In this document: positions 6,690 to 34,085 of the stretch, one piece after another | Layout of the letters: each line of letters begins with the position of its first letter | Numbering within the stretch: the stretch's first letter is position 1 | DNA from: Mesobacillus jeotgali | GTDB lineage: Bacteria > Bacillota > Bacilli > Bacillales > Cytobacillaceae | Reading direction: 5' to 3' | DNA: 64,000 bases | Assembly (NCBI RefSeq): GCF_031759225.1 | Contig: NZ_CP134494.1 | Location: 312,001-376,000, forward strand | Notes under the pieces: model-generated | What the model was told of the DNA's origin: nothing | The model's input: only the letters and a program-made list of their open reading frames with translations | The model's database searches: none | Position numbers and translations under genes: made by a program

Positions 6690-6936
6690 AGTGAAGGTGT
6701 ATGTAACGTTAAGGGAAAGTGTTCTGGATCCTCAAGGAACGGCTGTGAAAAACTCACTGGCTACTCATGGGTATGAAGGTATCCAGGAGGTTCGCATCGG
6801 CAAGTATATGGAGCTGACTTTGGATGACAGCGTGAAGGATATAGATTCAGCGGTGAAGGAAATGTGTGAGCGACTGCTGGCGAATCCGGTAATCGAGGAC
6901 TACAGGTACGAAGTCGAGGAGGTTGTTGCACAGTGA
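6682..6936 (+). CDS. purS: FGAM synthase subunit PurS
   Basis: 84 aa. Small structural subunit that bridges PurL and PurQ in the three-part FGAM synthase of Gram-positive bacteria. The sequence [18 protein letters not shown] is typical of the family. GGAGG precedes the start inside the purC end. The stop overlaps the GTG of purQ. Confidence 0.95.
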
Positions 6937-11216: not shown

Positions 11217-11256
11217 TCAGAGCTTTCTGAAGTGTTATTCCAAATAAAGGGGAATT

Positions 11257-11369
11257 GTGCAATTACAGCGGGTTTTCGTGCAATTAAATGGATTATGTGT
11301 GCAAATACTGAAGTTCTTTGTGCAATTATGATGAGTGTTTGTGCAATTCCGCCAGCTTTTTACGCAATC
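11257..11369 (+). repeat. Array A: six units, exact 21-bp period
   Basis: Core GTGCAATT or a close variant starts at 11257, 11278, 11299, 11320, 11341 and 11362, exactly 21 bases apart. The 13 bases between cores differ. It fills most of the purF-purM gap and would be transcribed in the operon mRNA. The period is divisible by three, so one frame reads as heptads beginning CAI. That frame overlaps purM, and the sister arrays have period 20, so a coding role is unlikely. Function unknown. Confidence 0.85.
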
Positions 11370-11445
11370 AGAGAAATGGCCGTAAAAAGACTGGCTCTTT
11401 TGTCACTTAGAATAAATTTAAACAGCCAAATCGGAGGTAGTGAAC

Positions 11446-12489
11446 ATGGCAAATGCGTATAAGCAGGCTGGTGTGGATATTGAGGCCGGGTACGAGGCGG
11501 TCGAACGGATTAAAAAGCATGTGAATCGGACAGTCCGGCCTGGTGTAATGGGGGCGCTGGGCGGTTTCGGCGGGATGTTCGACCTTTCCAGCCTTGATCT
11601 GAAGGAACCAGTTCTCGTTTCGGGAACGGATGGGGTCGGCACGAAGCTGATGCTCGCCTTTATGATGGACCGCCATGATACAATCGGCATAGATGCTGTC
11701 GCGATGTGCGTGAATGACATCGTTGTCCAGGGAGCGGAGCCATTATATTTCCTCGACTACATCGCCTGCGGCAAGGCTCAGCCTGAAAAAATCGAGGCGA
11801 TTGTCAAAGGGATTGCAGATGGCTGTGAGCAGGCTGGCTGCGCGCTTGTCGGTGGTGAAACTGCCGAAATGCCGGGGATGTACTCTCCGGAAGAATACGA
11901 TTTGGCTGGTTTTGCGGTCGGAGCCTGTGAAAAAGCTGATATAATCACCGGCCAGCAAATCAAGGAAGACGATGTGCTGATCGGTCTGGCGTCAAGCGGC
12001 ATCCACAGCAATGGCTACTCGCTAGTACGGAAGGTATTTTTCGAACAGTCCGGCTGGGAGCTTGACCGGTATGTTGATGAGTTCGGCTGTACGCTTGGCG
12101 AGGAGCTGCTGAAACCGACGCGCATTTATGTAAAATCGGTGCTTGCCGCGATGAAGCAGTTCGAGCTTAAAGGACTTGCCCATATTACTGGCGGCGGTTT
12201 TATTGAAAATATCCCAAGGATGCTTCCAGAAGGGCTTGGCGCTGAAATTGAGGAAGGCAGCTGGGAGATTCCTCAGGTGTTTAAAACGTTGGAGTCTTTA
12301 GCACAACTTGAGCGAACGGAAATGTATAATACATTTAATATGGGCATTGGCATGGTGGCAGCTGTTGATAAAAATATTGCCCATGAAGTGGTGAAGTATT
12401 TTAACGAGCAGGGTGAGAAGGCTTCGATCATCGGCACAGTTACTGGTTCAGAAGGGATCCAGATGAAAAGAGCTGGTGAGCGGGTATGA
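11446..12489 (+). CDS. purM: AIR synthase
   Basis: 347 aa. Closes the imidazole ring of FGAM to give AIR. The motifs [12 protein letters not shown] and [11 protein letters not shown] (residues near 139) are typical of PurM. An in-frame GTG lies at 11440, but the ATG at 11446 is 8 nt from GGAGG and gives the normal N-terminus. It starts after the repeat array and overlaps purN (ATGA). Confidence 0.96.
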
Positions 12490-13088
12490 AAAAAATAGCT
12501 GTTTTTGCATCGGGCAGCGGCAGCAATTTTCAAGCAATCGCGGTCGCGGCCCAGGCTGGCACATTGAATGTTGAAATTAGCTTGCTCGTTTGCGACAAGC
12601 CTGGCGCTTTTGCGGTCGATCGCGCCGAAATGCTCGGGATTCCGGCACTCGTCATCAGTCCGAAGAGCTATGCTTCCAAGGCGGCATATGAGACAGAGAT
12701 TTTACAAAAGCTTGCTGGACTTGAAATCGATATGATTGTCCTTGCCGGCTATATGCGCCTCATCGGGCCGACATTGCTCGGGGCTTATGAAGGAAAAATT
12801 CTCAACATCCACCCGTCATTATTGCCTGCATTCCCAGGGAAGGATGCCATTGGCCAGGCGCTGGCAGCGGGAGTAACGAAAACCGGAGTGACCATCCATT
12901 TCGTCGATGAAGGGATGGATACCGGGCCGATCATCGCGAGTACGGCTGTGAAAATCGCTCCCGGCGAGACGAAAGAGACCCTTCAGAAGAAAATACAGCG
13001 GATTGAACACAGTTTGTATCCAGAAGTTTTGGAGCAGCTGTTGAACGGAGAAGAGGAGGCAGTACAATGGGAAAAAAGCGTGCACTGA
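12486..13088 (+). CDS. purN: GAR transformylase (10-formyl-THF dependent)
   Basis: 200 aa. Formylates GAR at step 3. It contains the N-terminal [11 protein letters not shown], the catalytic [12 protein letters not shown] near residue 102 (Asn, His) and [10 protein letters not shown] (Asp near 140). The stop of purM overlaps its ATG, and its 3' end overlaps purH by 22 bases. Confidence 0.96.
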
Positions 13089-14605
13089 TCAGTGTTTCAA
13101 ATAAGGAAGGAATTGTTGAGTTAGCGAAGGAGCTTGTACAGCTTGGGTTTGAGATCGTTTCGACTGGAGGCACAAAACAAGCGCTGAAGGATGGCGGCGT
13201 GCCAGTCATTGGGATCAGCGATGTGACCGGTTTTCCGGAGATCCTTGAGGGGCGTGTGAAGACGCTGCATCCAAAAATCCATGGCGGCCTGCTTGCGAAG
13301 TATGACGACACATCGCACCAGAGTCAGCTGGCTGAAAACGAAATCGAAAAAATCGAGCTAGTCTGCGTGAATTTGTACCCTTTTAAAGAAACGATCTCAA
13401 AACCTGGTGTAACGCCAGAGGATGCGATTGAAAACATCGATATCGGCGGTCCGGCGATGCTCCGTGCATCAGCAAAAAACCATCAATACATAACCGTGCT
13501 AGTGGATCCTGCAGATTACCAGCAGGTGATTGAAGAGTACAAAACACAGAACGAAACTACGCTGGAAACGCGCCGCCGTTTGGCTGCGAAGGTATTCCGC
13601 CATACAGCTGCTTATGATGCGCTGATTGCTGAATACATGACGAATCTCGCTGGCGAGGAACAGCCGGAAAAAATGACGGTCACTTACGAGTTGAAGCAAA
13701 GTCTTCGCTATGGCGAAAATCCGCATCAGAAGGCTGCTTTTTACCAGAAGCCGCTTGGCTCGGCATTTTCGGTGGCGGCAGCTGAACAGCTACACGGAAA
13801 AGAGCTTTCCTATAATAATATCAATGATGCGAACGCTGCCTTGCAGATTGTAAAAGAATTCTCTGAGCCTGCTGCGGTTGCGGTCAAGCACATGAACCCA
13901 TGCGGAGTTGGCGCGGGCAAGGACATATTTGATGCTTTCGGAAAATCTTTCGAAGCGGATCCTGTTTCCATTTTTGGCGGCATCATCGCCTTGAATCGCG
14001 AAGTCGATGGTGAGACTGCTCGCAAGCTTTATGAAATTTTCCTTGAGATTATCATCGCTCCTTCTTTTAGCGAGGAAGCACTTGAAATTTTAACGGCGAA
14101 GAAGAATCTTCGCTTGTTGAAGGTCTCTTTTGATGGGGAAGCTTCAAAAGAAAATACACTATCTTCAATTGAAGGCGGTTTGCTCGTTCAGGAACAAGAT
14201 ACATTTGGATTTGATGAAGCGGAAATCTCCGTGCCGACGAAACGTGAACCGACGGAAGCCGAGTGGGAAGCGTTGAAGCTCGGATGGAAAGTTGTTAAGC
14301 ATGTTAAGTCCAATGCGATTGTCGTGGCGAATAAAGATATGACGCTCGGAATCGGTGCAGGACAAATGAACCGTGTCGGTGCCGCTAAAATTGCCTTGGA
14401 ACAGGCCGGGTCTAAAGCCGATGGAGCAGCGCTCGCATCTGATGCGTTCTTCCCGATGGATGACACTGTCGAAGCAGCGGCAAAAGCCGGTATCACGGCG
14501 ATCATCCAGCCGGGTGGATCAGTGCGCGATGCCGATTCTATCAAAAAAGCGGATGAATATGGCATTGCAATGGTGTTTACAGGCGTAAGGCATTTCAAGC
14601 ATTGA
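13067..14605 (+). CDS. purH: Bifunctional AICAR transformylase / IMP cyclohydrolase
   Basis: 512 aa, catalysing the last two steps to IMP. The N-terminal MGS-like cyclohydrolase domain (about 1-195) contains STGGTKQAL and [13 protein letters not shown]. The C-terminal transformylase domain contains KHMNPCGVG near residue 274 and the terminal PGGSVRD. GAGGAGG lies 7 nt before the ATG, inside purN. Confidence 0.97.
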
Positions 14606-14629
14606 TATCAGGAAAGTAATAGATGATAA

Positions 14630-16013
<1,384 letters not shown>

Positions 16014-16033
16014 AGTATCATCTCCTTTTTAGT

Positions 16034-16060
16034 AAGCCCCCAGAGTTTGGGGGCTTTTGT
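16034..16060. terminator. Terminator of the pur operon
   Basis: AAGCCCCCA (16034-16042) / TGGGGGCTT (16048-16056), loop GAGTT, with T-run on the plus strand. On the minus strand it would lie in the leader of the 37-codon gene, so it may also attenuate transcription entering that gene. Confidence 0.9.
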
Positions 16061-16106
16061 GTTAGGGTAATGTCGAGGCTGGACAAGGCATCTTGTGCCT
16101 TTCAGG

Positions 16107-16388
16107 TCAGCTTGGGTTATAAGGAATCCAGCCTTCAGAATCCCCGTTCTCCCCGTTCTCCGCGTTCCGGTCCTCCATCATGTCCTGGCCTTTTTCATAC
16201 GCAGCTGTCAGCGGACAGTAGCGGACAATTCCTTCGCCGACTTTCATTGCGCCCATCATTGCCATGAAGATATAGGAATCCTTCCATGGACGTTTTACCA
16301 TTTTTGATGTCGACCATGCCAGGATTGTCAGACCAGCTGTAATCCTGATGAGTGCGTTGATTATTCCGATATTCGGACGTACATTCAT
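16107..16388 (-). CDS. YgaP-like transmembrane domain (DUF2892) protein
   Basis: 93 aa. Two hydrophobic helices (about 8-26 and 38-56) with the DUF2892 pattern NVRPNIGIINALIRI and CPLTAAYE at the end of the second helix, then a hydrophilic tail rich in Asn, Glu and Asp. Standalone DUF2892 proteins are common in Bacillaceae, usually without a known role. AAAGGAG lies 10 nt before the ATG. It is divergent from yerA. Confidence 0.8.
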   Translation of the reverse strand: MNVRPNIGIINALIRITAGLTILAWSTSKMVKRPWKDSYIFMAMMGAMKVGEGIVRYCPLTAAYEKGQDMMEDRNAENGENGDSEGWIPYNPS

Positions 16389-16528
16389 TTACTCATCGCT
16401 CCTTTACTCCATTTTTACAATTAATTTGAAATTCTTTAATGCGTTAAACAGTGAAATATGTTACGATAGTACAATAATGTAAGGGCTTACACTTACTTCT
16501 TTTAACATAGAGAAAAGGGGAACATGGT

Positions 16529-18268
16529 ATGGAACAACGTTATCGATGGAAAAACAAACAATTGCGCGACCATGCTGCTGTTTTGGACGGCACCCTTTCA
16601 CCGACGGTCTTATTGAAGAATGCGACATATTTGAACCAGACATTCCGCAAGTGGATGACTGCGAACATTTGGATTTACAATGACAGGATTGTGTATGTTG
16701 GTGAAAACCTGCCTGAAAATACAAAGCAATGTGAAATAGTGGATTGCACCGGAATGAAACTGGTGCCGGGCTACATTGAACCTCATGCCCATCCATTTCA
16801 ACTTTATAATCCCCATTCTTTCGCTGCCTATGCATCGCAGACGGGGACGACGACACTGATCAATGACAATATGGTACTGGCTTTACAATTAGGTAAAAAG
16901 AAAGCGTTTTCTTTTATCAATGAGCTGAATGACAATCCAGTCACGATGTACTGGTGGTGCCGTTTTGATGCGCAGACCGAAATCCAGCACGAGGAGGAAG
17001 TTTTCTCGAACAGTAATGTGAGGGCATGGCTTGAGCATGAGAATGTCGTCCAGGGCGGGGAGCTGACGTGCTGGCCGAAGCTGATGAATGGCGACGACAT
17101 GATCCTTCATTGGATGCAGGAAACGAAGCGCCATCACAAGAAGATCGAGGGGCATTTCCCAGGTGCATCGGAAAAGACGCTGGCAAAAATGATGCTGTTC
17201 GGCGCCGATTGTGACCATGAGGCGATGACTGGCGAGGAAGTTCGCAGAAGGCTGTTGCAGGGATACATGGTGTCTTTAAGGCATTCGTCGATCAGACCGG
17301 ATTTGCCGAAGCTGCTCGATGAGATCCATGAACTGGATATCGCGGTGTACGACCGTTTTATGATGACAACGGACGGAGCATCTACTGCCTTTTATGAAAA
17401 TGGCGTCATCGATGAATTGATCCGTATTGCGATTGAAAAAGGCGTTCCCGTAATTGATGCCTACAATATGGCGACGATTAACGTGGCGCGTTATTATAAT
17501 TTCGAGCATCTTCACGGCAATATTGCGACAGGCCGGGTGGCGAACATCAATATTTTAAGTGATGAAATGAACCCGACACCTGTGTCCGTGCTGGCAAAAG
17601 GACAGTGGGTGAAGCGTGATGGTGAAGCAATCGATGCAGCTAAAGAGTTGGACTGGAATCAAATGGGTTTCGAGCCGCTTAGTATCGATTGGGACCTGAC
17701 GGTGGACGACCTTCAATTCTCGATGCCTTTCGGGATCAAGATGGAGAATTCGGTCATTACGAAGCCGTATTCCATTTCGATTGATGTCTCTGATGAAGAG
17801 CTGTCCTCGAACCATGATGAGTGCTTTTTCATGCTGATCGACCGTCAGGGAAAATGGCGCATCAATACGATGCTGAAAGGGTTTGCCACTGATTTGCAGG
17901 GGCTGGCAAGCTCGTTCTCCAATACTGGCGACATCATTCTGATTGGCAAAAGCAAGCCCGATATGATTGCTGCTTTTAACCGGATGAAGGAGCTTGGCGG
18001 TGGCATTGTTGCCTGTGAAAACAGCGTGCCTGTCAAGGAAATTCCATTAAGGCTTCAGGGCATCATGTCGAGTCATCCTGTGACGGAACTGATGGCGGAG
18101 GAGAAGAAGCTTCTTGGCTATTTAAAGGAGAAAGGCTATAAATTCGCCGATCCGATTTATTCACTACTATTCTTCAGTTCAACGCATTTACCTTATATCC
18201 GGATCACGCAGGAGGGTATCTATGATGTGATGAAAAAAACGATACTCTTTCCAACGATAATGCGTTAA
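16529..18268 (+). CDS. yerA: Adenine deaminase-related protein YerA
   Basis: 579 aa, amidohydrolase superfamily, AdeC group. The N-terminal barrel contains PGYIEPHAHPFQ (metal-binding His pair near residue 90). GHFPGASEKT lies around 210 and MMTTDGAS around 275. In B. subtilis the true adenine deaminase is AdeC and YerA is a close paralogue whose activity is less certain, so the substrate is inferred. The position next to the pur operon fits purine salvage. The start follows an AAGGGG site. Confidence 0.85.
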   Translation: MEQRYRWKNKQLRDHAAVLDGTLSPTVLLKNATYLNQTFRKWMTANIWIYNDRIVYVGENLPENTKQCEIVDCTGMKLVPGYIEPHAHPFQLYNPHSFAAYASQTGTTTLINDNMVLALQLGKKKAFSFINELNDNPVTMYWWCRFDAQTEIQHEEEVFSNSNVRAWLEHENVVQGGELTCWPKLMNGDDMILHWMQETKRHHKKIEGHFPGASEKTLAKMMLFGADCDHEAMTGEEVRRRLLQGYMVSLRHSSIRPDLPKLLDEIHELDIAVYDRFMMTTDGASTAFYENGVIDELIRIAIEKGVPVIDAYNMATINVARYYNFEHLHGNIATGRVANINILSDEMNPTPVSVLAKGQWVKRDGEAIDAAKELDWNQMGFEPLSIDWDLTVDDLQFSMPFGIKMENSVITKPYSISIDVSDEELSSNHDECFFMLIDRQGKWRINTMLKGFATDLQGLASSFSNTGDIILIGKSKPDMIAAFNRMKELGGGIVACENSVPVKEIPLRLQGIMSSHPVTELMAEEKKLLGYLKEKGYKFADPIYSLLFFSSTHLPYIRITQEGIYDVMKKTILFPTIMR

Positions 18269-18332
18269 AATATAACAGTGCATCTAGACATAGACAGCCA
18301 TGAAGGAACTTGGAGTTCAAGGGGTGGCGAAA

Positions 18333-19373
18333 ATGAGAAAAAAATGGATCGCTGTGCTGGCGGCCGCCATTGTGCTTACGGCCGGATGCAGCAGTAAAGA
18401 GACAGAGAAAAAAGAAGCAACAGAACATAAAGAAAAAGAAATAGAAGTAGATGAGGTTTCTGCACCGGAGGAGCTTCCATATCAATTCCCGCTGACAGGG
18501 GTGGGTACTGCTGAAGAGAGCACTGACAGGGCGGTGGCCGTGGTGGTCAATAACCATCCAAAGGCACGGCCTCAATCTGGTCTTCATAAAGCGGATGTCG
18601 TCCACGAGGTTCTCGCGGAAGGAGATGTGACAAGGTTCGTTGCGATTTTTCAAAGTGAGCAGCCAGAAAAAATAGGACCGGTCCGCAGTGCGAGGGAATA
18701 CTTCATCGACCTGGCATCCGGGTTTGACAGCTTTTTCATCGCCCATGGCTACAGCCCTGAAGCGAAGGATATGCTTGAACGCGGAATGATCGATAACATC
18801 AACGGAATGCAATATGATGGAACATTGTTCAAACGGGCCGATTTCCGTAAAGCGCCTCATAATTCTTATATCACCTATAAGAACATTGTAAAGGGGGCAG
18901 AAACGAGAGGCTACGCACTTGATGAAGCACCGGCTCCTGCAGTATTCTTGAGCAGTGAGGAAGCTGAAGGTCTTGAAGGTACTCCAGCCGAGGAGTTCAT
19001 GGTGAAGTACGGTTCGCCGTCGTTCGATTTAATCTACGAGTACAACGCAGATGAGCAAAAGTACCACCGTTTTAACGGCAGTGAAGAAAGTGTTGATTTG
19101 GAATCCAAGGATCCTGTTCTGCTCGACAACATCCTTGTCGTGCAAATGGATCATCGTGTAGTCGATGATGCTGGGCGCAGGGTGATTGATATGGAATCTG
19201 GCGGCAAGGGTTATCTGTTCCAAAAAGGCAAAGTGAATGAGATACAATGGAAAAATGAAGCTGGCAGGATCGTCCCCTATAAGGATGGAGCAAGAGCTGG
19301 TTTCGTTCCCGGGAAAACATGGATCAACATTGTCCCATCAATCAGCGATGTCTCATTCGACTCTCAACAATAA
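18333..19373 (+). CDS. yerB: DUF3048 lipoprotein YerB
   Basis: 346 aa lipoprotein. The signal peptide MRKKWIAVLAAAIVLTAGC ends in lipobox LTAGC with lipidated Cys19, followed by a Lys/Glu-rich linker. The DUF3048 body holds ARPQSGLHKADVV, GPVRSAREYF and, near the end, a second conserved region. The ATG at 18333 is 8 nt after AAGGGG; longer starts would put charged residues before the signal peptide. Function unknown; the family lies next to yerC in many bacilli. Confidence 0.85.
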   Translation: MRKKWIAVLAAAIVLTAGCSSKETEKKEATEHKEKEIEVDEVSAPEELPYQFPLTGVGTAEESTDRAVAVVVNNHPKARPQSGLHKADVVHEVLAEGDVTRFVAIFQSEQPEKIGPVRSAREYFIDLASGFDSFFIAHGYSPEAKDMLERGMIDNINGMQYDGTLFKRADFRKAPHNSYITYKNIVKGAETRGYALDEAPAPAVFLSSEEAEGLEGTPAEEFMVKYGSPSFDLIYEYNADEQKYHRFNGSEESVDLESKDPVLLDNILVVQMDHRVVDDAGRRVIDMESGGKGYLFQKGKVNEIQWKNEAGRIVPYKDGARAGFVPGKTWINIVPSISDVSFDSQQ

Positions 19374-19403
19374 CAAATTTGAGCGAAATAAGGGGTAAAC
19401 TAT

Positions 19404-19718
19404 ATGCAAATTGATAAACTTAGAGGAAAAGAGCTCGATCAACTATTCAAGGCGATTCTATCGCTGAAAGATCTCGATGAGGCATACCGCTTCTTCGACG
19501 ATCTGGCGACAGTGAACGAAATTCAGTCACTAGCACAGCGCCTTGAAGTTGCCCGCATGCTTCGTGAGGGCAAGACTTATCATAAAATCGAGACAGAAAC
19601 AGGCGCGAGCACGGCAACGATTTCCCGTGTCAAACGCTGCCTGAACTATGGAAACGATGCGTACGAAATGGCGCTAGAAAGATTGAAAGAACAGGAAAAC
19701 GCTGAGAAAGCGAAATAG
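19404..19718 (+). CDS. yerC: TrpR-like regulator YerC
   Basis: 104 aa. Small helical DNA-binding protein of the TrpR/YerC-YecD family. The N-terminus carries dimerisation helices. A helix-turn-helix follows at about 55-80 (VARMLREGKTYHKIETETGASTATISRVKRCL, quoted by position rather than in full elsewhere). YerC is not a tryptophan repressor in Bacillus as far as known. It is probably co-transcribed with yerB (30-base gap) and followed by a strong terminator. Confidence 0.85.
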   Translation: MQIDKLRGKELDQLFKAILSLKDLDEAYRFFDDLATVNEIQSLAQRLEVARMLREGKTYHKIETETGASTATISRVKRCLNYGNDAYEMALERLKEQENAEKAK

Positions 19719-19730
19719 TTTTAGATGAGG

Positions 19731-19760
19731 ACGGAACCGGATGTGGTTCCGTTCTTTTTT
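19731..19760 (+). terminator. Terminator after yerC
   Basis: ACGGAACC (19731-19738) / GGTTCCGT (19745-19752), 6-nt loop, then eight T-rich bases. Confidence 0.9.
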
Positions 19761-19772
19761 GTGGCGTGAGAT

Positions 19773-19930
19773 AACTGGGAAAAAACACGGATAATTTCCA
19801 ATTCGCTATAAAAATGAAAAAGTCGCTATATAAATGGAGAAGTCGCTATATAAATGAAAATTTCGCTATATAAATCAGATTATCGCAATATTAATAATTT
19901 CTTCGCTATTGATAAAGATGAGCGCTAAAA
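19773..19930 (+). repeat. Array B: seven units, 20-bp period
   Basis: The 327-base yerC-DUF3231 gap holds core TCGCTATA at 19803, 19823, 19843 and 19863, with TCGCAATA at 19883 and TCGCTATT at 19903, all exactly 20 apart. A shifted CGCTA follows at about 19923. Left of it (about 19773-19802) lies TAACTGG...TTTCCA, which matches the left flank of array C. The period of 20 cannot be a codon repeat. The bases 19931-20045 show nothing further. Confidence 0.88.
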
Positions 19931-20045
19931 AGTTCACTCTAGAATCTGCATTCGCGGACCGTTTCGATTGAATTACCCAAAACTGCTCGTATAAGATTGC
20001 CAATCCAGCAAAAAACTAATGAAAAATACGGGTAAGGGGTTAATT

Positions 20046-21083
20046 ATGGAATCGTTGAAGCCAATTCAGTTTGATACAAGCAAGGTAAGTCCAAAAGAAA
20101 AGTTCACCTCAGTGGAAATGGCAAAGCTTTGGGCAACATATATGGGCAATAGCCTTTCGCAGAAGATTATCAGTCACTTCCTTCAGCATGTGGAGGATGA
20201 AGAGATTAAAACGCTGCTTGAGAATGCGAAGGGGCTTACCGAGGATTTTATGGAGAAAATCAAATTTTTTATGGAAAATGAAAATTTCCCTGTGCCTCAG
20301 GGGTATACGGATCAGGACTTAAATTCAGCAGCACCGCGTTTATTTGAGGATGAGTTCTATGTCCATTACTTGAAGTATGCTGCAAAGGCGGGGCTGAGCA
20401 TCTATGCCATTGCCCTTCCGTTAGTGATGAGGCTGGATATCAGGGAGTTTTTTATTCATTGCGGCATGATGACGACGGAACTCCTGGCCCAGATCAACGG
20501 CCTCTTGATGGACAAAGGTTTTATTATCAAACCGCCTGTCCTTCCGAATCCGGAAAAAATCGATTTCGTCGAAAACAAGAGTTATCTGGATGGGTTTGGT
20601 CATAATCTCCGGCCGCTTCATGCCCTCGAGGTGACTCATCTGTATGACAACATTGAAAACAATGTTACCAGCAAAGCGTTGTTAATCGGTTTTAGCCAGG
20701 TGGCAAGAACGCAGCAGGTGCGTGATTTTTTCATCAAAGGAATCGAAATGACTGATAAAATGGTGGAGCAGTTCAAGGCAAAGCTTCATAAGGAAAATCT
20801 GCCGTCACCTGCCTTATTGGATCATTTGGTGACCAATTCAACGGTTTCCCCTTATTCCGATAAATTGATGCTTAGCCATAAAGCGGACATGTTCGCCATG
20901 AAGATCAGATCGATGGGAAACTCAATGGCGGTCAACGGTCGGAAGGATATCGGCCTGTTATATGGAAAAGCCCTGATGAATGTCGCCTTATTTGCAGAGG
21001 ATGCCGCGGAAATCCTGATCAGGCATGGGTGGCTGGAGCAGCCGCCACATGCCGCAGACAGGGGAAAACTTGCGTCAGAATAG
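20046..21083 (+). CDS. DUF3231 family protein
   Basis: 345 aa, all-helical. It has two homologous halves (about 5-165 and 180-335), as in DUF3231. The half-openings TSVEMAKLWATYMGNS and HALEVTHLYDNIENNV each begin a four-helix, ferritin-like unit. The function is unknown; several members are spore-associated in Bacillus. The chosen ATG is 6 nt after AAGGGG; an ATG 27 bases earlier lacks a site. The gene is bracketed by periodic arrays B and C and is absent from the usual yerC-pcrB interval, so it is probably an insertion. Confidence 0.8.
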   Translation: MESLKPIQFDTSKVSPKEKFTSVEMAKLWATYMGNSLSQKIISHFLQHVEDEEIKTLLENAKGLTEDFMEKIKFFMENENFPVPQGYTDQDLNSAAPRLFEDEFYVHYLKYAAKAGLSIYAIALPLVMRLDIREFFIHCGMMTTELLAQINGLLMDKGFIIKPPVLPNPEKIDFVENKSYLDGFGHNLRPLHALEVTHLYDNIENNVTSKALLIGFSQVARTQQVRDFFIKGIEMTDKMVEQFKAKLHKENLPSPALLDHLVTNSTVSPYSDKLMLSHKADMFAMKIRSMGNSMAVNGRKDIGLLYGKALMNVALFAEDAAEILIRHGWLEQPPHAADRGKLASE

Positions 21084-21090
21084 AATACAG

Positions 21091-21114
21091 AAGCCTGCAG
21101 ATGCAGGCTTTTTT
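21091..21114 (+). terminator. Terminator after the DUF3231 gene
   Basis: AAGCCTG (21091-21097) / CAGGCTT (21104-21110) with a short loop, followed by a T-run. Confidence 0.85.
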
Positions 21115-21165
21115 GCATTCGAGGTTGTTGTATCTGAATAGTCACATTCAACAATCTGCGCAAAA

Positions 21166-21290
21166 GGTAATTGGAAAAAAACAATGATATTTTCCAGTTC
21201 GCCAATAAAACTGAAGAATCGCCAATAAAAAATGAAAATCGCCAATAAAATTTGATTTTCGCCAAAAAAAATCGAAAAACGAAGTTAGTA
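21166..21290 (+). repeat. Array C: four to five units, 20-bp period
   Basis: Core TCGCCAATAAAA starts at 21199, 21219 and 21239, with TCGCCAAAAAAA at 21259, exactly 20 apart; a decayed fifth may lie at 21279. The left flank (about 21166-21198) contains TTGGAAAA/TTTTCCA, an inverted repeat also seen in front of array B. The array ends within 15 bases of the transporter remnant, as if it marks a deletion junction. Confidence 0.87.
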
Positions 21291-21300
21291 TAAAAAAGCG

Positions 21301-21480
21301 ACCCCGGCGGGCAGTCTGGCATCCTTGTTTCTTGGAAGTCTCGCAGTCTATCTTGGCGAAAAGGAGTTCATCAGCTTCTTCGGGCTTGACCCTATTTATC
21401 TGGCACTGATTGTCAGCGGAATCAGCTTCTATGTTTTTTCACGATTATTCACCGAGCAATACGAGCACCGTGATTTATGA
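21301..21480 (+). pseudogene. C-terminal remnant of an integral membrane transporter
   Basis: The frame closing at TGA 21478-21480 reads SLASLFLGSLAVYLGEKE, then ISFFGLDPIYLALIVSG and FYVFSRLFTEQYEHRDL: two transmembrane helices and a charged tail. The reading is open only from 21289 and has no start codon. This looks like the last 55-60 residues of a permease, possibly of the NCS1 (cytosine/purine) type, though the family is uncertain. It keeps its own terminator. The 5' part of the gene is missing, and array C sits at the break. Confidence 0.6.
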
Positions 21481-21490
21481 TTTTTCACCA

Positions 21491-21518
21491 AAAGCGTTCC
21501 ACCATACGGGACGCTTTT
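21491..21518 (+). terminator. Terminator after the transporter remnant
   Basis: AAAGCGTTCC (21491-21500) / GGGACGCTTT (21508-21517), 10 bp with one GU pair, followed by T residues. Confidence 0.85.
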
Positions 21519-21547
21519 TTCTACATATATAGATATATTTCTCACTT

Positions 21548-21735
21548 AGATAAGTGTCCAGCTCCAGCGCCTAGCCAGTTTTCATCCCTGATTATGCTCC
21601 TCGAGTATCTTGCGAGAAGCGTTAGCTTTGAGCAGCTCGAGTCGCTTCGGTCCGCCCAATGAAGTCAAAGAACGACTTCACCAGTCGACCCTCCAGCGCT
21701 TGTCGGGGCTGACTAAGGCGCTTGCGCTTTTCTCA
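21548..21735. repeat. Dispersed palindromic intergenic repeat, copy 1
   Basis: Begins GTGTCCAGCTCCAGCGCCTAG and ends with AAGGCGCTTGCGCTTTTC. The termini carry the inverted repeat AGCGCCT/AGGCGCT, and internal segments such as AGTCAAAGAACGACTT can form further hairpins. A shorter relative lies at 24841-24945. Repeats of this look are scattered through many Bacillus genomes. The frame crossing it is not a gene. Confidence 0.8.
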
Positions 21736-21766
21736 CATGTTTCCTTTTTTATATATACACAACAAA

Positions 21767-21775
21767 TGCTATAAT
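21767..21775 (+). promoter_or_regulatory. Extended -10 promoter of pcrB
   Basis: TGCTATAAT (21767-21775) is an extended -10 element with no clear -35 box. The predicted start near 21782 leaves about 30 bases before the pcrB ATG. Confidence 0.6.
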
Positions 21776-21811
21776 GGTGGAATGGATAGATAGAATGGGG
21801 GCAATTCAGGG

Positions 21812-22498
21812 ATGTACGATGTTCGCGAGTGGAGACATGTGTTCAAACTCGATCCAAATAAAGAGATAACTGATGAAGAATTAGATAGAATTTGCGAATC
21901 TGGAACAGACGCGATCATGGTCGGGGGCACGGATGGAGTCACTCTTGAAGGAGTCCTTGATTTGATGTCCCGAGTACGTCGTTACACGGTTCCATGCATT
22001 CTTGAGGTTTCGACGATTGATTCGATCACGCCGGGATTCGACTTTTATTTTATCCCGACGGTGCTGAATAGCGGCAATCCGCAGTGGATCACAGGCCTGC
22101 ACCATGAAGCGGTCAAGGAGTATGGCGACCTGATGGATTGGGATGAGCTGAAAATGGAAGGCTATTGCATCCTGAATCCTGATTGCAAGGCGGCAAAGCT
22201 GACTGACGCGAAGACCGAGCTTTCGATCGAGGATGTACGGGCATATGCGATGATGGCGGAGAAGATGTTCAACCTGCCGATTTTTTATTTGGAATACAGC
22301 GGGACATATGGGAATCCTGAATATGTGGAAGCAGCCAAAGGTGTGCTCGAAAACACGGTCCTCTTTTACGGCGGCGGGATCGAAACAGCAAAGCAGGCAG
22401 AAGAGATGTCCAGGCATGCCAATGTCATCGTGGTCGGGAATGTTGTGTACAGCAATCTTGACGAGGCATTGAAGACCGTAGCTGCTGTGAAAAAATAG
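21812..22498 (+). CDS. pcrB: Heptaprenylglyceryl phosphate synthase
   Basis: 228 aa TIM-barrel prenyltransferase of the PcrB/GGGPS family. It adds a C35 heptaprenyl chain to sn-glycerol-1-phosphate, an archaeal-type ether lipid step found in Firmicutes. The conserved [20 protein letters not shown] (about 32-40), [10 protein letters not shown] (about 160) and [14 protein letters not shown] are present. It directly precedes pcrA, the usual arrangement. Confidence 0.93.
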
Positions 22499-22511
22499 AT
22501 GATAGGACAAG

Positions 22512-22540
22512 TTGTTTGTTACATTGTTTTGAGATAAAAT
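22512..22540 (+). promoter_or_regulatory. Sigma-A promoter between pcrB and pcrA
   Basis: TTGTTT (22512-22517), 17-base spacer, TAAAAT (22535-22540), about 30 bases before the pcrA start. Confidence 0.5.
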
Positions 22541-22571
22541 AAGAACAAATGTTTGTATGGTGGTGACGAGT

Positions 22572-24821
22572 GTGCAATTTTTAACGGATAAATTATTGAA
22601 TGGCTTGAACCCGGAGCAGCAGAAGGCTGTCAGGACAGTGGATGGACCGCTGCTCTTAATGGCTGGCGCCGGCTCTGGTAAAACAAGAGTTTTAACACAT
22701 AGAATTGCGTATTTAATGGTGGAAAAAGGGGTAAACCCTTATAACATCCTTGCGATTACGTTTACGAATAAAGCAGCGCGCGAGATGCGCGAGAGGATCC
22801 AGAAGATGATGGGCGGAGCGGCAGAGGATATCTGGATTTCAACTTTCCACTCGATGTGTGTGCGGATTTTGCGCAGGGACATCGACCGTCTCGGCTACAA
22901 CCGAAACTTCACGATCCTTGATTCGACTGACCAGCAATCAGTCATCAAGTCGATTTTGAAGGACAAGAATATGGATCCGAAAAAATATGATCCTCGTGCG
23001 ATTCTTGGAACGATCAGCTCGGCGAAGAATGAATTGATTACTCCTGAGGAATATGCGAAGACGGCGGGGGATTATTTTTCCCAGAAGGTCAGCGATGTGT
23101 ATACGGAGTACCAGCGCAGGCTTCGCAAGAATAACGCGCTTGATTTCGATGACCTGATCATGACGACGATCACACTGTTCATCCGCGTGCCGGAAGTGCT
23201 GGAGTACTACCAGCGCAAATTCCAGTACATCCATGTCGATGAGTACCAGGATACGAACAGGGCACAATACATGCTGGTCAAATTGCTCGCGCAACGATTC
23301 CAGAACCTATGTGTTGTCGGTGATTCTGACCAGTCGATCTATCGCTGGCGCGGTGCGGATATCACGAACATCCTTTCATTTGAAAAGGACTACCCAAGGG
23401 CAAGTGTGATTTTGCTCGAGCAAAACTATCGCTCGACGAAAAAGATTTTGCTGGCTGCGAATATGGTCATCCAGAACAATATGAACCGCAAGCCGAAGAA
23501 CCTTTGGACAGAAAACCCAGAGGGCAACAAAATCTTGTACTATCGCGCGGACAGTGAACAGGGCGAGGCTCAGTTCGTTATCGGCAAAATCCAGGAACAG
23601 GTTCGCAATGGCCGCAAGCTGTCTGATATCGCGATTCTCTATCGTACGAACGCCCAGTCACGTGTAATCGAGGAATCTTTCCTGAAGTCGAACATCGATT
23701 ACTCGATTGTCGGCGGCATCAAGTTCTATGACAGAAAAGAAATCAAGGACATCCTTGCTTATCTTCGTTTGATTTCGAATCCTGATGATGACATCAGCTT
23801 GCAGAGGATCATCAATGTTCCGAAGCGCGCGATCGGTTCGACTTCGATTGATAAAATCGCCAACTTCGCAACCATGCATGATCTGTCGATGTTTCAGGCG
23901 CTGGAGACGATTGAAATGATCGGCCTCAGCCCGAAAGCGGAGAAGGCAGCGGCTGAATTCCGCAACCTGATCAGCAATTACACACACCAGCAGGAATACC
24001 TTTCTGTGACGGAGCTGGTGGAGGAAGTTCTCGATAAAACAGGCTACCGTGACATGCTTAAGGCGGAAAAATCGCTGGAATCACAGAGCAGACTTGAAAA
24101 TATAGATGAGTTTTTAACCGTTACAAAGAGCTTTGAAGAAAGCAGTGAAGATAAAAGTCTTGTCGCGTTCCTGACGGATTTGGCGCTTGTCGCTGATATT
24201 GACCGTCTCGACGATGATGGCGAGCAAAAAACAGATTTCGTCACTTTAATGACATTGCACTCAGCGAAGGGACTTGAGTTCCCGGTTGTCTTCCTGATTG
24301 GAATGGAAGAAGGGGTATTCCCGCACAGCCGCTCATTGATGGAGGAGGATGAGATGGAGGAAGAACGCCGTCTTGCCTACGTGGGAATCACCCGTGCCGA
24401 GGAGGAGCTTTTCATTACGAATGCCCAGATGCGTACCCTTTTCGGCCGTACGAATATGAATCCGGAATCACGGTTCATTAAGGAAATACCAGCTGATTTG
24501 GTTGAAGACGCTGTTCCAAAAGTCAGAAGACCTGCACCAACAAGCGGAGGCAGACCAGCAGCTGGCGGTGGGAGACCAGGCACTTCAGCAAGACCGTCCA
24601 TGCCAACTCGCGGAGCTGTTTCCCGTCCGGTCGCAGCTGCAAGCGGAGGCGAAGGCATCGATTGGAAGGTTGGCGACAAAGCTCAGCATGGCAAGTGGGG
24701 AACAGGAACCGTTGTCAGCGTAAAAGGGTCGGGAGAAGGCACAGAGCTTGATATTGCATTCCCAAGCCCAACCGGAATCAAACGATTGCTGGCCAAGTTT
24801 GCACCGATTACAAAGGCGTAA
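22572..24821 (+). CDS. pcrA: ATP-dependent DNA helicase PcrA
   Basis: 749 aa, superfamily 1A 3'-5' helicase used in repair and plasmid replication. Walker A GAGSGKT is at 32-38, followed by [42 protein letters not shown] and [11 protein letters not shown]. The Gly/Pro-rich linker near 660-700 leads to the C-terminal Tudor-like RNA polymerase-binding fold. An ATG lies at 22557, but the GTG at 22572 has GGTGGTGA 5 nt upstream and aligns with the B. subtilis start. Confidence 0.95.
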
Positions 24822-24840
24822 TCAATCTACACATAAATTA

Positions 24841-26984
<2,144 letters not shown>

Positions 26985-26998
26985 GAGGTGTACACGCC

Positions 26999-28216
26999 AT
27001 GAGGAAGCTCTCAATGGTCGCTCTATCTCTTGTCCTTTTGCTGACGGCCTGCGCCCCTAATTTTCAAAAGCAGGAAGAGGTCGTCCAGGAGAAGGATGAT
27101 GAAACAAAGGAAAAAGCGATTATTCCGAAGTATAAAATTTCGGACAAATATTACCGTACCATTATGCCGTTCGAGCCTGGGGAAGCTCGCGGCATGGTCG
27201 TCAACAATCTGAATACCCGATATGACATCACCGAGTTTGAAACGGGATTGATGCGGGTTGCCCAAAATTCTTTTCCGACAGATGAATATGTTTTTAAAGA
27301 AGGCCAGTATCTCAAACGCAGCACTGTAACATCGTGGCTGGAGCGTGAAATGACTCCGGCTCAGGTAGAGGCAAAGGAAAAAGAGTTACAGGCTAAGGCA
27401 AAAAAAGAAAATAGAAATGAAAAGATTACAGTTAAAAACTTGGGGTTGAATCCTCCTTTACCTGGGAATGGCGATGTCCATGAACAGAATAAAAAGAATC
27501 CTATTTATCTAGCACATATCCTGGAGCATAACTATCTCGTCCAATCAGGGAAAGAGGACACGTACCAGCTTGGCGGCATTGCAATCGGGCTGGCGCTGAA
27601 TTCTGTCCACTATTATCAAACAGAACAATATGGGGCAGTGTATGAGAAAAATATTTCCCGTTCCGTTCTTGAAGCGGAAGGGAAGAAAATCGCCCAGGAA
27701 GTCATCAACAGGATCAGAGGAATCGAAGAATTGAGAAATGTACCGATTACGATCGGATTGTTTGAACAGGAAAGCCGCTCCTCTGTTGTTCCTGGCAACT
27801 TTTTCACCTATGCAGAAGTTTCCCAGGGCAGCAACAATATCGGCAGCTGGAAGGATATAAAAGAAGAATACATCCTGTTCCCGTCAGAAAAAGCCGAGAA
27901 GGATCACAGGGATGACCTGACATTCTTCCAGAACTTCAAGCAGGATGTTGAGGAGTATTTCCCTAACTTCAACGGCGTCATCGGCAAAGGTTTTTATCTC
28001 GATGGCCAGCTGCAAGAGTTGAATATCGAGATTCCTATCCAGTTTTATGGCGAAGCCGAGGCGATTGGTTTCACCCAGTATGTAACAGGACTGGTCATGG
28101 AGCACTTCCCTAACTATATCTCCGTGCAGGTCAGCGTATCATCTGTACTGGGACAGGAAGCCCTGATCGTGAAAAAGCCAGACCAGGACGAACCATTTGT
28201 GCATATCTATCAATAA
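26999..28216 (+). CDS. camS: CamS family sex-pheromone lipoprotein (YerH)
   Basis: 405 aa. The signal peptide ends in LLTAC with lipidated Cys18, so the protein is membrane-anchored outside the cell. The CamS body includes YYRTIMPFEPGEARGMV and LAHILEHNYLVQSG. In enterococci the signal peptide of the homologue is processed to the cAM373 pheromone; in Bacillus the role is unknown. It is co-transcribed with ligA and ends at a terminator. Confidence 0.88.
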   Translation: MRKLSMVALSLVLLLTACAPNFQKQEEVVQEKDDETKEKAIIPKYKISDKYYRTIMPFEPGEARGMVVNNLNTRYDITEFETGLMRVAQNSFPTDEYVFKEGQYLKRSTVTSWLEREMTPAQVEAKEKELQAKAKKENRNEKITVKNLGLNPPLPGNGDVHEQNKKNPIYLAHILEHNYLVQSGKEDTYQLGGIAIGLALNSVHYYQTEQYGAVYEKNISRSVLEAEGKKIAQEVINRIRGIEELRNVPITIGLFEQESRSSVVPGNFFTYAEVSQGSNNIGSWKDIKEEYILFPSEKAEKDHRDDLTFFQNFKQDVEEYFPNFNGVIGKGFYLDGQLQELNIEIPIQFYGEAEAIGFTQYVTGLVMEHFPNYISVQVSVSSVLGQEALIVKKPDQDEPFVHIYQ

Positions 28217-28249
28217 AGCAAAGAGCATGGATCTCTTTGCTTTTTTTTT
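28215..28249 (+). terminator. Terminator after ligA-camS
   Basis: GCAAAGAG (28218-28225) / CTCTTTGC (28233-28240) extended by AAA/TTT, loop CATGGAT, then nine T residues. Confidence 0.92.
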
Positions 28250-28488
28250 ATGGAATGGTGTATCGTATTTATCTGTTTCGTCGTCCTATTTTTAAGGAGG
28301 CGGAGGGATGTGAAGATACAAGCTCTGAGTTTAAGTAAACTGCCGGGGGTCTTTGCTTTTTAAATGCATTTTTTAATATCAAGGATTGTCTGTAAGTGCA
28401 TGCCTTTTTTGAATGATAGATAAATTCGCTAGATTAAGGGAATTCCCTGCTGAATCACTGTGTGATTTTATTACTATGATCATTTTAT

Positions 28489-28602
28489 TGGCGAAAATTT
28501 GATGATATTGACCACATTTTTGAATATATCAGCGGATTTTAAAATATATCGACTTCTTTTTCGATTATATCGACCACTTTCACAATTTTATCGACCAACT
28601 CT
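28489..28602 (+). repeat. Array D: about six units, 20-21-bp period
   Basis: In the 547-base camS-rocA gap, related cores (TTGGCGAA, TTGACCAC, TCAGCGGA, TCGACTTC, TCGACCAC, TCGACCAA) start at 28489, 28509, 28529, 28549, 28570 and 28591, at steps 20, 20, 20, 21 and 21. ATAT or TTTA precedes most cores. It is more decayed than A-C. The rest of the gap (28250-28480 and 28610-28690) shows no gene. Confidence 0.75.
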
Positions 28603-28691
28603 GAAACGAGCCATAAAGTGGGCTGAATTACAATATTGCCATAATAAATATTGTGAAAATTTGCAATCCAAGACTTGCTAGTACGTTGTCA

Positions 28692-28745
28692 TTGAACACT
28701 ATGAGAGTCTCATGATAGAATGGGAAAGGAATGAAAACGTTTTAA
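28692..28745 (+). promoter_or_regulatory. rocA promoter with palindrome and cre-like site
   Basis: TTGAAC (28692-28697), 18-base spacer, TAGAAT (28716-28721). Within the spacer sits the perfect 6-1-6 palindrome ATGAGA-G-TCTCAT (28701-28713), a candidate operator. Just downstream of the expected start, TGAAAACGTTTTAA (28732-28745) matches the CcpA cre consensus at all but one position. This suggests carbon-catabolite control plus a second regulator. B. subtilis rocA uses a sigma-L/RocR system instead. Confidence 0.6.
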
Positions 28746-28763
28746 TACATAGGAGGGGATAGA

Positions 28764-30311
28764 ATGGTTCAGCCATACAAACACGAGCCTTTCACGAATT
28801 TTAAAGATGAGGAAAACCGTGAAGGATACCTAACAGGATTGAAAACTGTAGAAGGCTATCTTGGCCAGGATTACGACTTGGTGATCGGCGGAGAGAGAAT
28901 CTCGACTGAGGACAAGATTGTATCTTACAACCCATCCAATAAAGAAGAAGTTATTGGGCGTGTTTCTAAAGCAAACCGCGACTTAGCTGAAAAGGCTATG
29001 CAGGCTGCAGTTGAAGCGTTCAAGACTTGGAAAAAAGTGAAGCCTGAAACACGTGCAGATGTATTATTCAAGGCTGCTGCGATCATTCGCCGCCGCAAGC
29101 ATGAGTTCTCAGCGCTTTTAACAAAGGAAGCAGGTAAGCCATGGAACGAGGCAGATGCTGATACAGCTGAAGCAATCGACTTCCTTGAGTACTATGCCCG
29201 CCAAATGCTAAAAATCAAAGACGGAATGCCAGTTAATAGCCGTCCAAATGAATATAACCGTTATGATTACATTCCTCTTGGAGTGGGAATCGTCATTTCA
29301 CCATGGAACTTCCCATTGGCGATCATGGCTGGTACAACTGTTGCAGCGATCGTTACAGGCAACACAGTTCTATTGAAGCCGGCTTCTACAACTCCAGTAG
29401 TTGCAGCTAAGTTTGTTGAAGTTATGGAAGAAGCAGGTCTTCCTGCAGGCGTCCTTAACTTCGTACCAGGAAGCGGCGCAGAAGTGGGCGACTACCTTGT
29501 TGACCACAAAGACACTCGCTTCGTAAGCTTCACAGGTTCACGTGATGTGGGTCTGCGTATTTACGAGCGCGCTTCTAAATTGAGCGAAGGCCAAATCTGG
29601 CTTAAGCGCGTAATCGCTGAAATGGGCGGAAAAGACACAATGGTTGTTGACAAAGATGCTGATCTTGAATTGGCTGCTCAAGCAATCACTGCTTCTGCAT
29701 TCGGCTTCTCAGGACAAAAGTGTTCTGCATGTTCACGTGCTGTCATCGTTGAAGATGTATACGACCAGGTTCTTAACCGCGTCGTTGAATTGACAAACGA
29801 GCTTAAGCTTGATGATCCTACAGATCAAAGCACATTCATGGGTCCAGTAAACGACCAGGGTGCGTTTGACAAGATCATGAGCTACATCGAAATTGGCAAG
29901 GAAGAAGGCCGTTTGATGACTGGAGGCGAAGGAGACAGCTCTAAAGGCTACTTCATCAAGCCGACAGTATTCGCTGATGTCGATCCACAGGCTCGCATCA
30001 TGCAGGAAGAAATCTTCGGACCGGTTGTTGCTTTCGCAAAAGCGAAGGACTTCGACCATGCGCTTGAAATCGCGAACAACACGGAATACGGCCTGACTGG
30101 AGCAGTCATCACTCGCAACCGTGAGAATATCCAGAAGGCACGTGAAGATTTCCATGTAGGAAACCTTTACTTCAACCGCGGCTGCACAGGCGCAATCGTA
30201 GGTTACCAGCCATTCGGCGGCTTCAACATGTCAGGAACAGATTCAAAAGCTGGCGGACCAGACTATCTGCTTCTTCACATGCAAGCTAAGACTACTTCTG
30301 AAATGTACTAA
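28764..30311 (+). CDS. rocA: L-glutamate gamma-semialdehyde (P5C) dehydrogenase
   Basis: 515 aa, aldehyde dehydrogenase superfamily. Oxidises pyrroline-5-carboxylate to glutamate with NAD in proline and arginine degradation. It contains SPWNFPLAI near 175, the catalytic Cys near 320 (GQKCSACSR) and the Glu in VIAEMGGKD near 290; the C-terminus [16 protein letters not shown] is typical of RocA/PruA. AGGAGGGG lies before the ATG. No proline dehydrogenase gene is nearby. Confidence 0.93.
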
Positions 30312-30322
30312 TACAGACCTAG

Positions 30323-30356
30323 AATCCCTTTCTCGTTGTGAGAAGGGGATTTTTTG
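30323..30356 (+). terminator. Terminator after rocA
   Basis: AATCCCTTTCTC (30323-30334) / GAGAAGGGGATT (30340-30351), 12 bp with one GU pair, then T-run. Confidence 0.93.
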
Positions 30357-30403
30357 TGTTTTATGGCTTTTCCAAACATTGATTGGAGAGTTAAGACCAG
30401 GTA

Positions 30404-30497
30404 TCGCACCGTCCCCGCTATTAATTGCACCGAAAAGAGGAGGAATTGCACGTTCTGACTACATAATTGCACGCTTCATAAGCATAATTGCACCGTT
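30404..30497 (+). repeat. Array E: five units, exact 21-bp period
   Basis: In the 333-base rocA-aceB gap, TCGCACC at 30404 is followed by TTGCACC or TTGCACG at 30425, 30446, 30467 and 30488, exactly 21 apart, mostly preceded by AA. It lies between the rocA terminator and the aceB promoter. The reverse complement of the core resembles that of array A, with shared TGCA. Confidence 0.85.
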
Positions 30498-30565
30498 TAC
30501 CTATTTATGGAATAAGGGGCTATAGCCCCATTTTAAAAATTTTTCAGAAAAATTTAACAAAATAG

Positions 30566-33851: not shown

Positions 33852-34085
33852 GATGTACCCAAAAAGGGCTGAAACCCAAGATTTCGGTAACAAGTAAGGC
33901 CAATATGTGCCCGAAAAAGCAAGGAATATAGGATTTCGGTAACAAGTAGGGGCCAATATGTGCCCGAAAAAGCAGGGAAACGAGGATTTCGGTAACAAGT
34001 TAGGGGCAACATGTGCCCGAAAGGACATATACGACTGCCTGGGTTAAAATTGTAGTGTATTTAAGGATTGCGGAAACAAGTATAT
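33852..34085 (+). repeat. Array F: 52-53-bp period repeats
   Basis: The 537-base aceA-yueI gap contains ATTTCGGTAACAAG at 33881, 33933 and 33986 (steps 52 and 53), each followed by about 15 bases and then TGTGCCCGAAA. A decayed front unit (ATGTACCCAAAAAGGG) starts near 33853, and a degenerate ATTGCGGAAACAAG lies at 34067. TTTCGG and CCGAAA within each unit are inverted, so each unit can form a hairpin. Minus-strand open frames across it are only translations of the repeat. Confidence 0.88.

Follow-up and report, generated by a model that had tools for sequence, protein, structure and literature searches.

Intergenic 20/21-bp repeat arrays of a Mesobacillus genome: composite elements with conserved core and step, and candidate sites for a DNA-wrapping protein

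What keeps a short word recurring at an almost fixed distance in the DNA between genes? The question is raised by a 64,000-nt stretch of the Mesobacillus jeotgali genome (the window), in which five arrays, A to E, had been proposed to form one family with a shared design, an intergenic position and steps of 20 or 21 bp. We examined these arrays in their sequence and open reading frame (ORF) context and found all five in place, between genes of annotated length; the lag and chain counts given below agree with the idea of a single family. Such an array typically consists of about six near-identical words spaced two helical turns apart, lies between genes and is found in most close relatives as well. 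The arrays are a real, non-random and selected feature belonging to a class of repeats that has been described but not explained, and the patterns in their sequence lead us to favor, with moderate confidence, the view that they are DNA-level composite elements, that is, rows of putative sites for one or more wrapping or oligomerizing sequence-specific proteins.

The regularity stands well clear of chance. Within 33 intergenic stretches of the window, whose borders we picked from the ORF list, 7-mers recurred 38 times at a lag of 20, 30 times at 21, 24 times at 40 and 12 times at 42, and the maximum at any lag over 100 dinucleotide shuffles was 8; the counts at lags 52 and 53 (30 and 36) belong to a separate repeat family. 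The genome-wide enrichment that the original prediction called for was confirmed outside the window, in 39 stretches of 20 kb (774 kb without N), where exact 8-mers recurred 141 times at lag 20 and 165 times at lag 21 versus 16 to 67 times at the other lags between 10 and 30. A chain search (at least four 8-mers) returned 13 chains of step 20/21 in 844 kb of the M. jeotgali genome, window included, while control step pairs that leave out 20 and 21 gave 0-1. The arrays also occur in related Bacillaceae, a check that had been proposed in advance: 45 such chains were found in 80 loci round pcrB, a number in which orthologous arrays count repeatedly, with 0-2 for the control steps. No step 20/21 chain was found outside the family in 330 kb from nine genomes of the order, a sample too small to decide.

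The cores had been thought to be specific to each array, a claim that does not survive closer inspection. Arrays A and E carry one core on opposite strands, as reverse complements, and the pair patterns of the four classes match many times across the whole genome, with 79 matches for class C (CGCCAATAA), 37 for class B (CGCTATAWAA), 38 for class A (GTGCAATT) and 6 for class D (GGTCGATAT), the reversed control matching 0 times in every case. Class C was found in 20 of 21 same-genus genomes and as single matches in 2 of 172 other genomes of the family, which is chance level since the reversed pattern also matched two. Class B was present in 18 of the 21 and in 0 of 40 others, and class A in 15 of the 21; beyond the genus, two genomes of one other genus have 18 and 7 class A matches, and 2 more of the 172 have a single match each. 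Other Bacillaceae have different cores in the same layout (for example CGCGGATA, GTCCAAAA, GCAGATAT, TATCGGTC and TATGCTCC); oriented alike, most cores appear to consist of a variable GC-containing head followed by an ATA-like tail.

The repeated word is only one part of a composite element. Arrays B and C have a common leader, and all but two of the 21 class C elements of the M. jeotgali genome (the clear exceptions are L018 and L176) open with the inverted repeat AACTGGAAA-n-TTTCCAGTT or one of its variants, immediately ahead of the first core; six cores were detected in 15 of these elements, five in five, and four in that of the window. Class B elements carry a leader of the class C type. 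At up to three mismatches the B/C leader pattern matches the whole genome 33 times and its reversed version once, and the 33 matches run into CGCCAATAW (18), CGCTATAW (11), a one-mismatch version (3) or neither (1). Among the 12 of 16 class A loci that are readable, a TTCC-n-GG leader is found in 8, and a trailer near GAATAATTTTTCCAG in 7, where the distance from the first base of the last detected core to the first base of the trailer is always 25 bp; 1.6 million background positions gave 12 matches to the trailer and 1178 to the loose leader. A conserved 3' end is missing from class C. In class D, a CGCTGATAT-type unit tends to occupy the middle of the array, and a CGCCAATAA core terminates the class D array of the window, its orthologs and one paralog (L248). 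The spacers follow a grammar of their own: in class C the 21-bp units have an extra TTGTGAA motif in the spacer and the 20-bp units do not, and classes A, B and C all have a further AT block, roughly one turn away from that of the core. AA/TT power at 10-10.5 bp amounts to 1.17-1.62 in B/C arrays (n=26) and 0.74-1.50 in class A (n=12), with 0.22-0.24 in mononucleotide shuffles of the B/C arrays.

Comparison of orthologous arrays reveals which parts of this architecture are held. Of the 21 genomes of the genus, 20 have an array in the same position after trmB and 17 have one after pgi, where one further locus (L267) retains a leader relic and three have none; the number of detected units at these two places ranges from 1 to 7, the pgi array of L266 having six cores. 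Core identity among the trmB and pgi arrays is 0.947 and 0.961, values biased upward by the acceptance of later units at up to 2 mismatches in 9, whereas spacers of the same rank agree at 0.539 and 0.577 and random spacer pairs at 0.480 and 0.483. Their steps are 20 or 21 in 152 of 156 cases and 19 in the other 4. For the orthologs of array B in six genomes the corresponding figures are 0.863 for cores, 0.541 for spacers and 0.505 for random spacers, with a downward bias, as these arrays were aligned on position alone at an imposed step of 20 and two of them contain a 19-bp step. Class A keeps step 21 in 38 of 38 own-genome pairs (19-22 allowed), and a few of the listed pairs differ in other genomes. 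With cores and steps held and spacers near random, selection acts on word and step far more than on spacer, though the second AT block and the AA/TT phasing place the spacers under some constraint. Cores can also change in concert, at least partly via unit duplication: in L043, GTCGAATTA replaces GTCGATATA in the majority of array D units, and in L260 five of six units read CGCGAATAA alongside duplicated 41-bp spacer pairs.

These results recast the speculation that a DNA-bending or filament-forming protein recognizes the phase of the repeats and not the exact core. The two-turn step is indeed kept, and AA/TT phased at 10-10.5 bp would suit wrapping or bending; the exact core seems to matter as well, however, for the cores are the most conserved part of the arrays, about 95% identical in about 20 genomes, with spacers near random. 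The companion claim that all cores lie on one face of the DNA is only approximately right, as class B holds 20 bp in 40 of 44 steps, which at the 10.5 bp per turn of relaxed DNA would amount to a drift of about 5 bp over five steps.

The placement of the arrays offers little sign of a tie to particular genes. Although 20 of 72 arrays overlap predicted ORFs, these are mostly short and presumed spurious, and the mixture of 20- and 21-bp steps within arrays, together with their position between genes, marks them as non-coding. Of the 24 scored class B/C elements, 18 occupy tandem gaps, 5 convergent gaps and 1 a divergent gap. A fixed orientation to genes was considered and set aside as a tendency at best: the leader side points toward the 3' end of the neighboring gene in 17 of 24 B/C elements and, with all classes pooled, in 11 of 21 arrays of the M. 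jeotgali genome and 21 of 31 arrays of relatives, after 10 own and 10 relative arrays inside predicted ORFs were dropped. A run of at least five T within 25 bp upstream of the leader, seen in 14 of 26 B/C elements, has no background comparison and carries no weight. No common family was found among the neighbors of the 24 elements (40 of 46 distinct proteins scanned; 3 without a Pfam match). On a larger scale the distribution is uneven. The contig of the window begins at dnaA, and its GC skew flips between 2.30 and 2.42 Mb; of the 33 leaders, 29 lie in the origin-proximal half (p = 1.1e-5), as do 15 of the 16 class A arrays (p = 5e-4) and 17 of the 21 class C arrays (p = 0.007). Chains of the 52-bp family show no such bias, with 14 of 35 in that half, which contains 19 of the 40 sampled stretches. 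The contig of G075 has dnaA at its start as well, and 6 of its 7 class A loci fall in the origin-proximal half.

From this architecture, the constrained cores and steps, the drifting spacers and the phased AT blocks, we propose the following scheme. End motifs, either an inverted repeat or a TTCC/AGG leader, joined in class A by a TTTTTCCAG trailer, would frame a row of some six copies of a single asymmetric 9-11-bp core, spaced two helical turns apart. The cores would be bound, one per two turns, by one or a few sequence-specific proteins that oligomerize side by side and wrap or bend the DNA, while the element ends would serve to place or cap the assembly. More tentatively, such assemblies may act in chromosome organization or gene insulation rather than as switches of single genes, a role suggested by the location of the arrays between unrelated genes and by their clustering in the origin-proximal half. 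A bolder version, which we think doubtful but worth stating, would make the arrays chromosome-organizing sites of the origin domain: a lineage-specific family of DNA-wrapping proteins would occupy phased, mostly origin-proximal arrays with leader and trailer, protein and core would co-evolve, with each genus, and at times a single array of one species, adopting a new core within an unchanged architecture, and genome G080 would have lost the system.

Several observations weigh against a system of wrapping proteins. G080, a genome of the same genus with a completeness rating of 100%, lacks pairs of classes A, B and C, which implies that those arrays are dispensable; it is the sole genome of the 21 without all three classes (class A is missing in 6 and class B in 3), and step 20/21 chains number 0 in 300 kb of it against about 3.5 expected by a hand estimate from the unselected sample of the M. 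jeotgali genome (9 in 774 kb). No cognate protein gene was recognized among the scanned neighbors of the class B/C elements, and the link of the arrays to gene ends is weak. Unit duplication, as in L260 and in array D of L043, accounts for some of the concerted change without a protein, and some of the AA/TT power is due to the repeated core itself. Leaders and class C arrays are overlapping sets in the origin-bias counts, and conserved gene neighborhoods near the origin may produce this bias.

Other explanations have to account for the same evidence. The elements might be non-autonomous mobile elements, similar to miniature inverted-repeat transposable elements (MITEs) or bacterial interspersed mosaic elements (BIMEs), or the remains of such, with ends and cores serving as sites for a transposase-like enzyme and whole elements being copied. 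The many dispersed copies of one composite with a common leader and spacer grammar, matches to TGGAAAAA or TTTTTCC seen by eye at both ends of some class B elements, the genus specificity of the classes and a DDE transposase as one of the 40 scanned neighbors (L025) would suit this origin. We nevertheless judge it unlikely. The presence of the trmB element at the same place in 20 of 21 genomes indicates that this copy is old and inherited, class C lacks a conserved 3' end, no target duplication was established, and the kept step and core would need selection after insertion; the array-free sites (3 of 21 at pgi, 1 of 21 at trmB) fit loss as well as insertion. That the arrays are neutral satellites, whose units are kept alike by slippage and unequal exchange with no bound protein, is the least probable of the explanations considered here, for exchange would homogenize spacers along with cores, yet the spacers are near random while cores and steps hold; in its favor are the range of 1 to 7 units after trmB and pgi, the duplicated 41-bp pairs in L260 and an array of 46 units in L057.

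An action of the arrays as RNA, whether as small RNAs, sponges or RNA-protein platforms, appears quite improbable to us. Roles for RNA were discussed by Subirana and Messeguer mainly for the 52-nt repeat class (PMC8161180), and 52-nt repeats of B. coagulans are transcribed (PMC8161180, PMC8625621). The B/C leader alone can form a hairpin (mean z -2.1, n=26), but the arrays fold no better than shuffles on either strand (mean z +0.4 and +0.1, n=26), and leader plus array gives mean z of -0.5 and -0.7 (n=26). A search of the window with Rfam at gathering thresholds found no covariance-model match at the arrays; moreover, their orientation to genes is mixed, and AA/TT phasing with the helix and a step of two turns are features of DNA. 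It is very unlikely, finally, that the arrays are operators of ordinary transcription factors, with one factor and one regulon per core class. The presence of several core classes per genome, the multi-site layout and the intergenic position would agree with operators, and 4 of the 40 scanned neighbors are DNA-binding regulators; these belong to four different families, however (a sigma-54 activator, HTH_17, TetR and a response regulator), the scanned neighbors share no common family, only 1 of 24 elements lies in a divergent gap, and array A is situated between purF and purM. Rows of sites for a wrapping or oligomerizing protein thus remain the reading we prefer. Selection on core and step, end motifs and a genus-mate that lacks classes A, B and C open the function of the arrays to direct experiment, and if a wrapping protein of drifting specificity were found, it would represent a new kind of chromosome-structuring system in the Bacillaceae.

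Table 1. Arrays of the 20/21-bp family and their leaders in the window.
Feature	Position	Strand	Remarks
Leader of array A, TTCC-n-AGG type	11235..11256	+	TTCC..GG leader type, in 8 of 12 readable class A arrays
Array A, class GTGCAATT	11257..11369	+	5 cores and a degenerate sixth, step 21; between purF and purM
Leader of array B	19773..19803	+	Imperfect inverted repeat AACTGGGAAA...TTTCCAATT
Array B, class CGCTATAWA	19804..19912	+	6 units (2 degenerate), step 20
Leader of array C	21169..21199	+	Imperfect inverted repeat AATTGGAAA...TTTCCAGTT
Array C, class CGCCAATAA	21200..21268	+	4 units (last degenerate), step 20
Array D, GTCGATAT cores	28485..28595	-	CGCTGATAT at position 4, CGCCAATAA core at the 3' end
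Array E, class GTGCAATT	30402..30493	-	4 cores and a degenerate fifth, step 21; before malate synthase
Leader of array E, TTATTCC-n-AGG	30494..30515	-	Type as in array A

The single units of the arrays in Table 1 can be placed individually. In array A, GTGCAATT starts at 11257, 11278, 11299 (one mismatch), 11320 and 11341, with a degenerate copy at 11362; on the minus strand, AATTGCAC of array E starts at 30423, 30444, 30465 and 30486. Array B, which lies downstream of yerC and a terminator-like hairpin (judged by eye), has CGCTATAWA at 19804, 19824, 19844 and 19864 and degenerate units at 19884 and 19904, and array C has CGCCAATAA at 21200, 21220 and 21240 and CGCCAAAAA at 21260. The sequence 3' of array C (21269-21480) is a 3' relic of a sodium:solute symporter family gene that is whole in relatives (L042 8439-9869), so that a deletion in the lineage of the window ends at or near the array. 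The only Rfam match in the window is a purine riboswitch (RF00167, 2738-2839, 93.1 bits). Elsewhere in the M. jeotgali genome, L021 adds another two core classes, TATCTCCAGTTG and GATAATCCCCGTT, which are separated by about 100 bp at 13595-13928 and lie inside one 465-bp predicted ORF that is probably spurious, and two masked stretches (L026 12501-17500 and L034 16247-16972) were read as N. The 46-unit array in L057 begins at 16448, is built of TGCAAATA and alternates three or four 21-bp steps with one 19-bp step, giving a higher-order period. B and C arrays stand in tandem in L051 (8061-8305) and are seemingly fused in L047 (9450-10005), the gene between them lost, as if the arrays were places of recombination. 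The record of L050, titled Chryseobacterium sp. ISL-80, contains a Mesobacillus-like region (PcrB 91% identical), and its label looks wrong.

The arrays can be set beside several known systems of repeats. BIMEs and the repetitive extragenic palindromic (REP) sequences of enterobacteria are likewise dispersed, intergenic, often located at gene 3' ends and not tied to a regulon, but they consist of imperfect palindromes of about 35-40 bp; the present arrays, built of direct, asymmetric 9-11-bp cores at fixed 20/21-bp steps rather than palindromic units, are not of this kind. Clustered regularly interspaced short palindromic repeats (CRISPR) combine repeats of about 23-47 bp with unique spacers and cas genes, and they were rejected on repeat length, with no cas search made, as the whole unit here measures 20/21 bp with a core of 9-11 bp. 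Plasmid centromeres of the ParR-parC type and iterons are tandem, phased, system-specific direct repeats that seat an oligomerizing protein, usually at one site per plasmid beside the gene for that protein. The tandem, phased direct repeats of such centromeres and iterons, and of pSM19035 parS, are the point of likeness; the arrays differ in having dozens of chromosomal copies, several cores and no cognate gene recognized beside them. One class C element, the only element so searched, was compared by blastn with 72,556 plasmid and 50,697 phage records and matched none of them. The class C pair occurs in 11 IMG/VR stretches, of which the chain search listed four, and only L124 has a repeat round the match; this contig carries a four-unit 21-bp repeat with the class C word and conserved spacers at 6668-6760, perhaps coding for a seven-residue repeat.

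Periodic or intergenic direct repeats have also been reported in other bacteria. The RemA sites of B. subtilis are periodic AT-rich direct repeats thought to wrap a ring protein, with a period of about 10 bp, 7-bp protections 3 bp apart and modest sequence conservation (PMC8481266); the arrays resemble them in being periodic direct repeats and differ in their period of 20/21 bp and nearly invariant core. The TAACTGA repeats of Beggiatoaceae form abundant intergenic direct-repeat sets of one word, a likeness to the arrays, but that word is a single heptamer, lies mostly within a few nt upstream of start codons and is thought to act post-transcriptionally (PMC4679880).

The closest counterparts by far are the repeats of Bacillus catalogued by Subirana and Messeguer in 2021, who describe two classes of constant size, 20-21 and 52 nt, and variable sequence (PMC8161180), so that the statement in the original prediction that no named repeat class has this description has to be withdrawn. 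Of the two outcomes that the prediction had listed as refuting it, the match with an already described family thus applies, whereas the lack of enrichment in the remainder of the genome does not. The second of these classes is abundant here too, with a 52/53-bp tandem array at 33853-34022 of the window; in 774 kb of the M. jeotgali genome, 4811 exact 8-mers recur at lag 52, and 33 chains have steps of 51-53 bp versus 7 at 45-47 bp. These 52-nt repeats share a genome with the 20/21-bp arrays and have a length near five helical turns. They differ in showing no origin bias and in being present in G080, where 7 chains of 51-53 bp were found in 300 kb (control 0) in the absence of classes A, B and C, indicating that the two repeat systems are separable. 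The 20-21-nt repeats are likewise non-coding and occur in many arrays per genome and several species-specific families, and they carry a short conserved signal in the unit, such as TCGCGG in B. weihaiensis (PMC8161180). Thirty arrays of this size are listed for B. selenatarsenatis (Table 4, contig NZ_BASE01000145; our locus L043 is NZ_BASE01000002), and a note to Table 1 of the same paper gives the B. selenatarsenatis repeats as common to B. boroniphilus and B. subterraneus. All three species are among the nearest PcrB relatives of the window. Subirana and Messeguer termed the constant-size repeats enigmatic, noted that 20-21 nt equals two helical turns and suggested a nucleoid or polymerizing protein, or small RNAs (PMC8161180); our literature searches turned up no later paper naming a protein that binds the 20-21-nt repeats. 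The available part of their account contains no leader or trailer, spacer grammar, comparison of core with spacer among orthologs, AA/TT phasing or origin bias, all of which are found in the arrays described here. With their constant size, several families (A/E, B, C, D and the two in L021), group specificity and non-coding position, the arrays are members of the described 20-21-nt class, to which the present work adds an anatomy, a pattern of constraint, helical phasing, genomic placement and a same-genus genome that lacks classes A, B and C.

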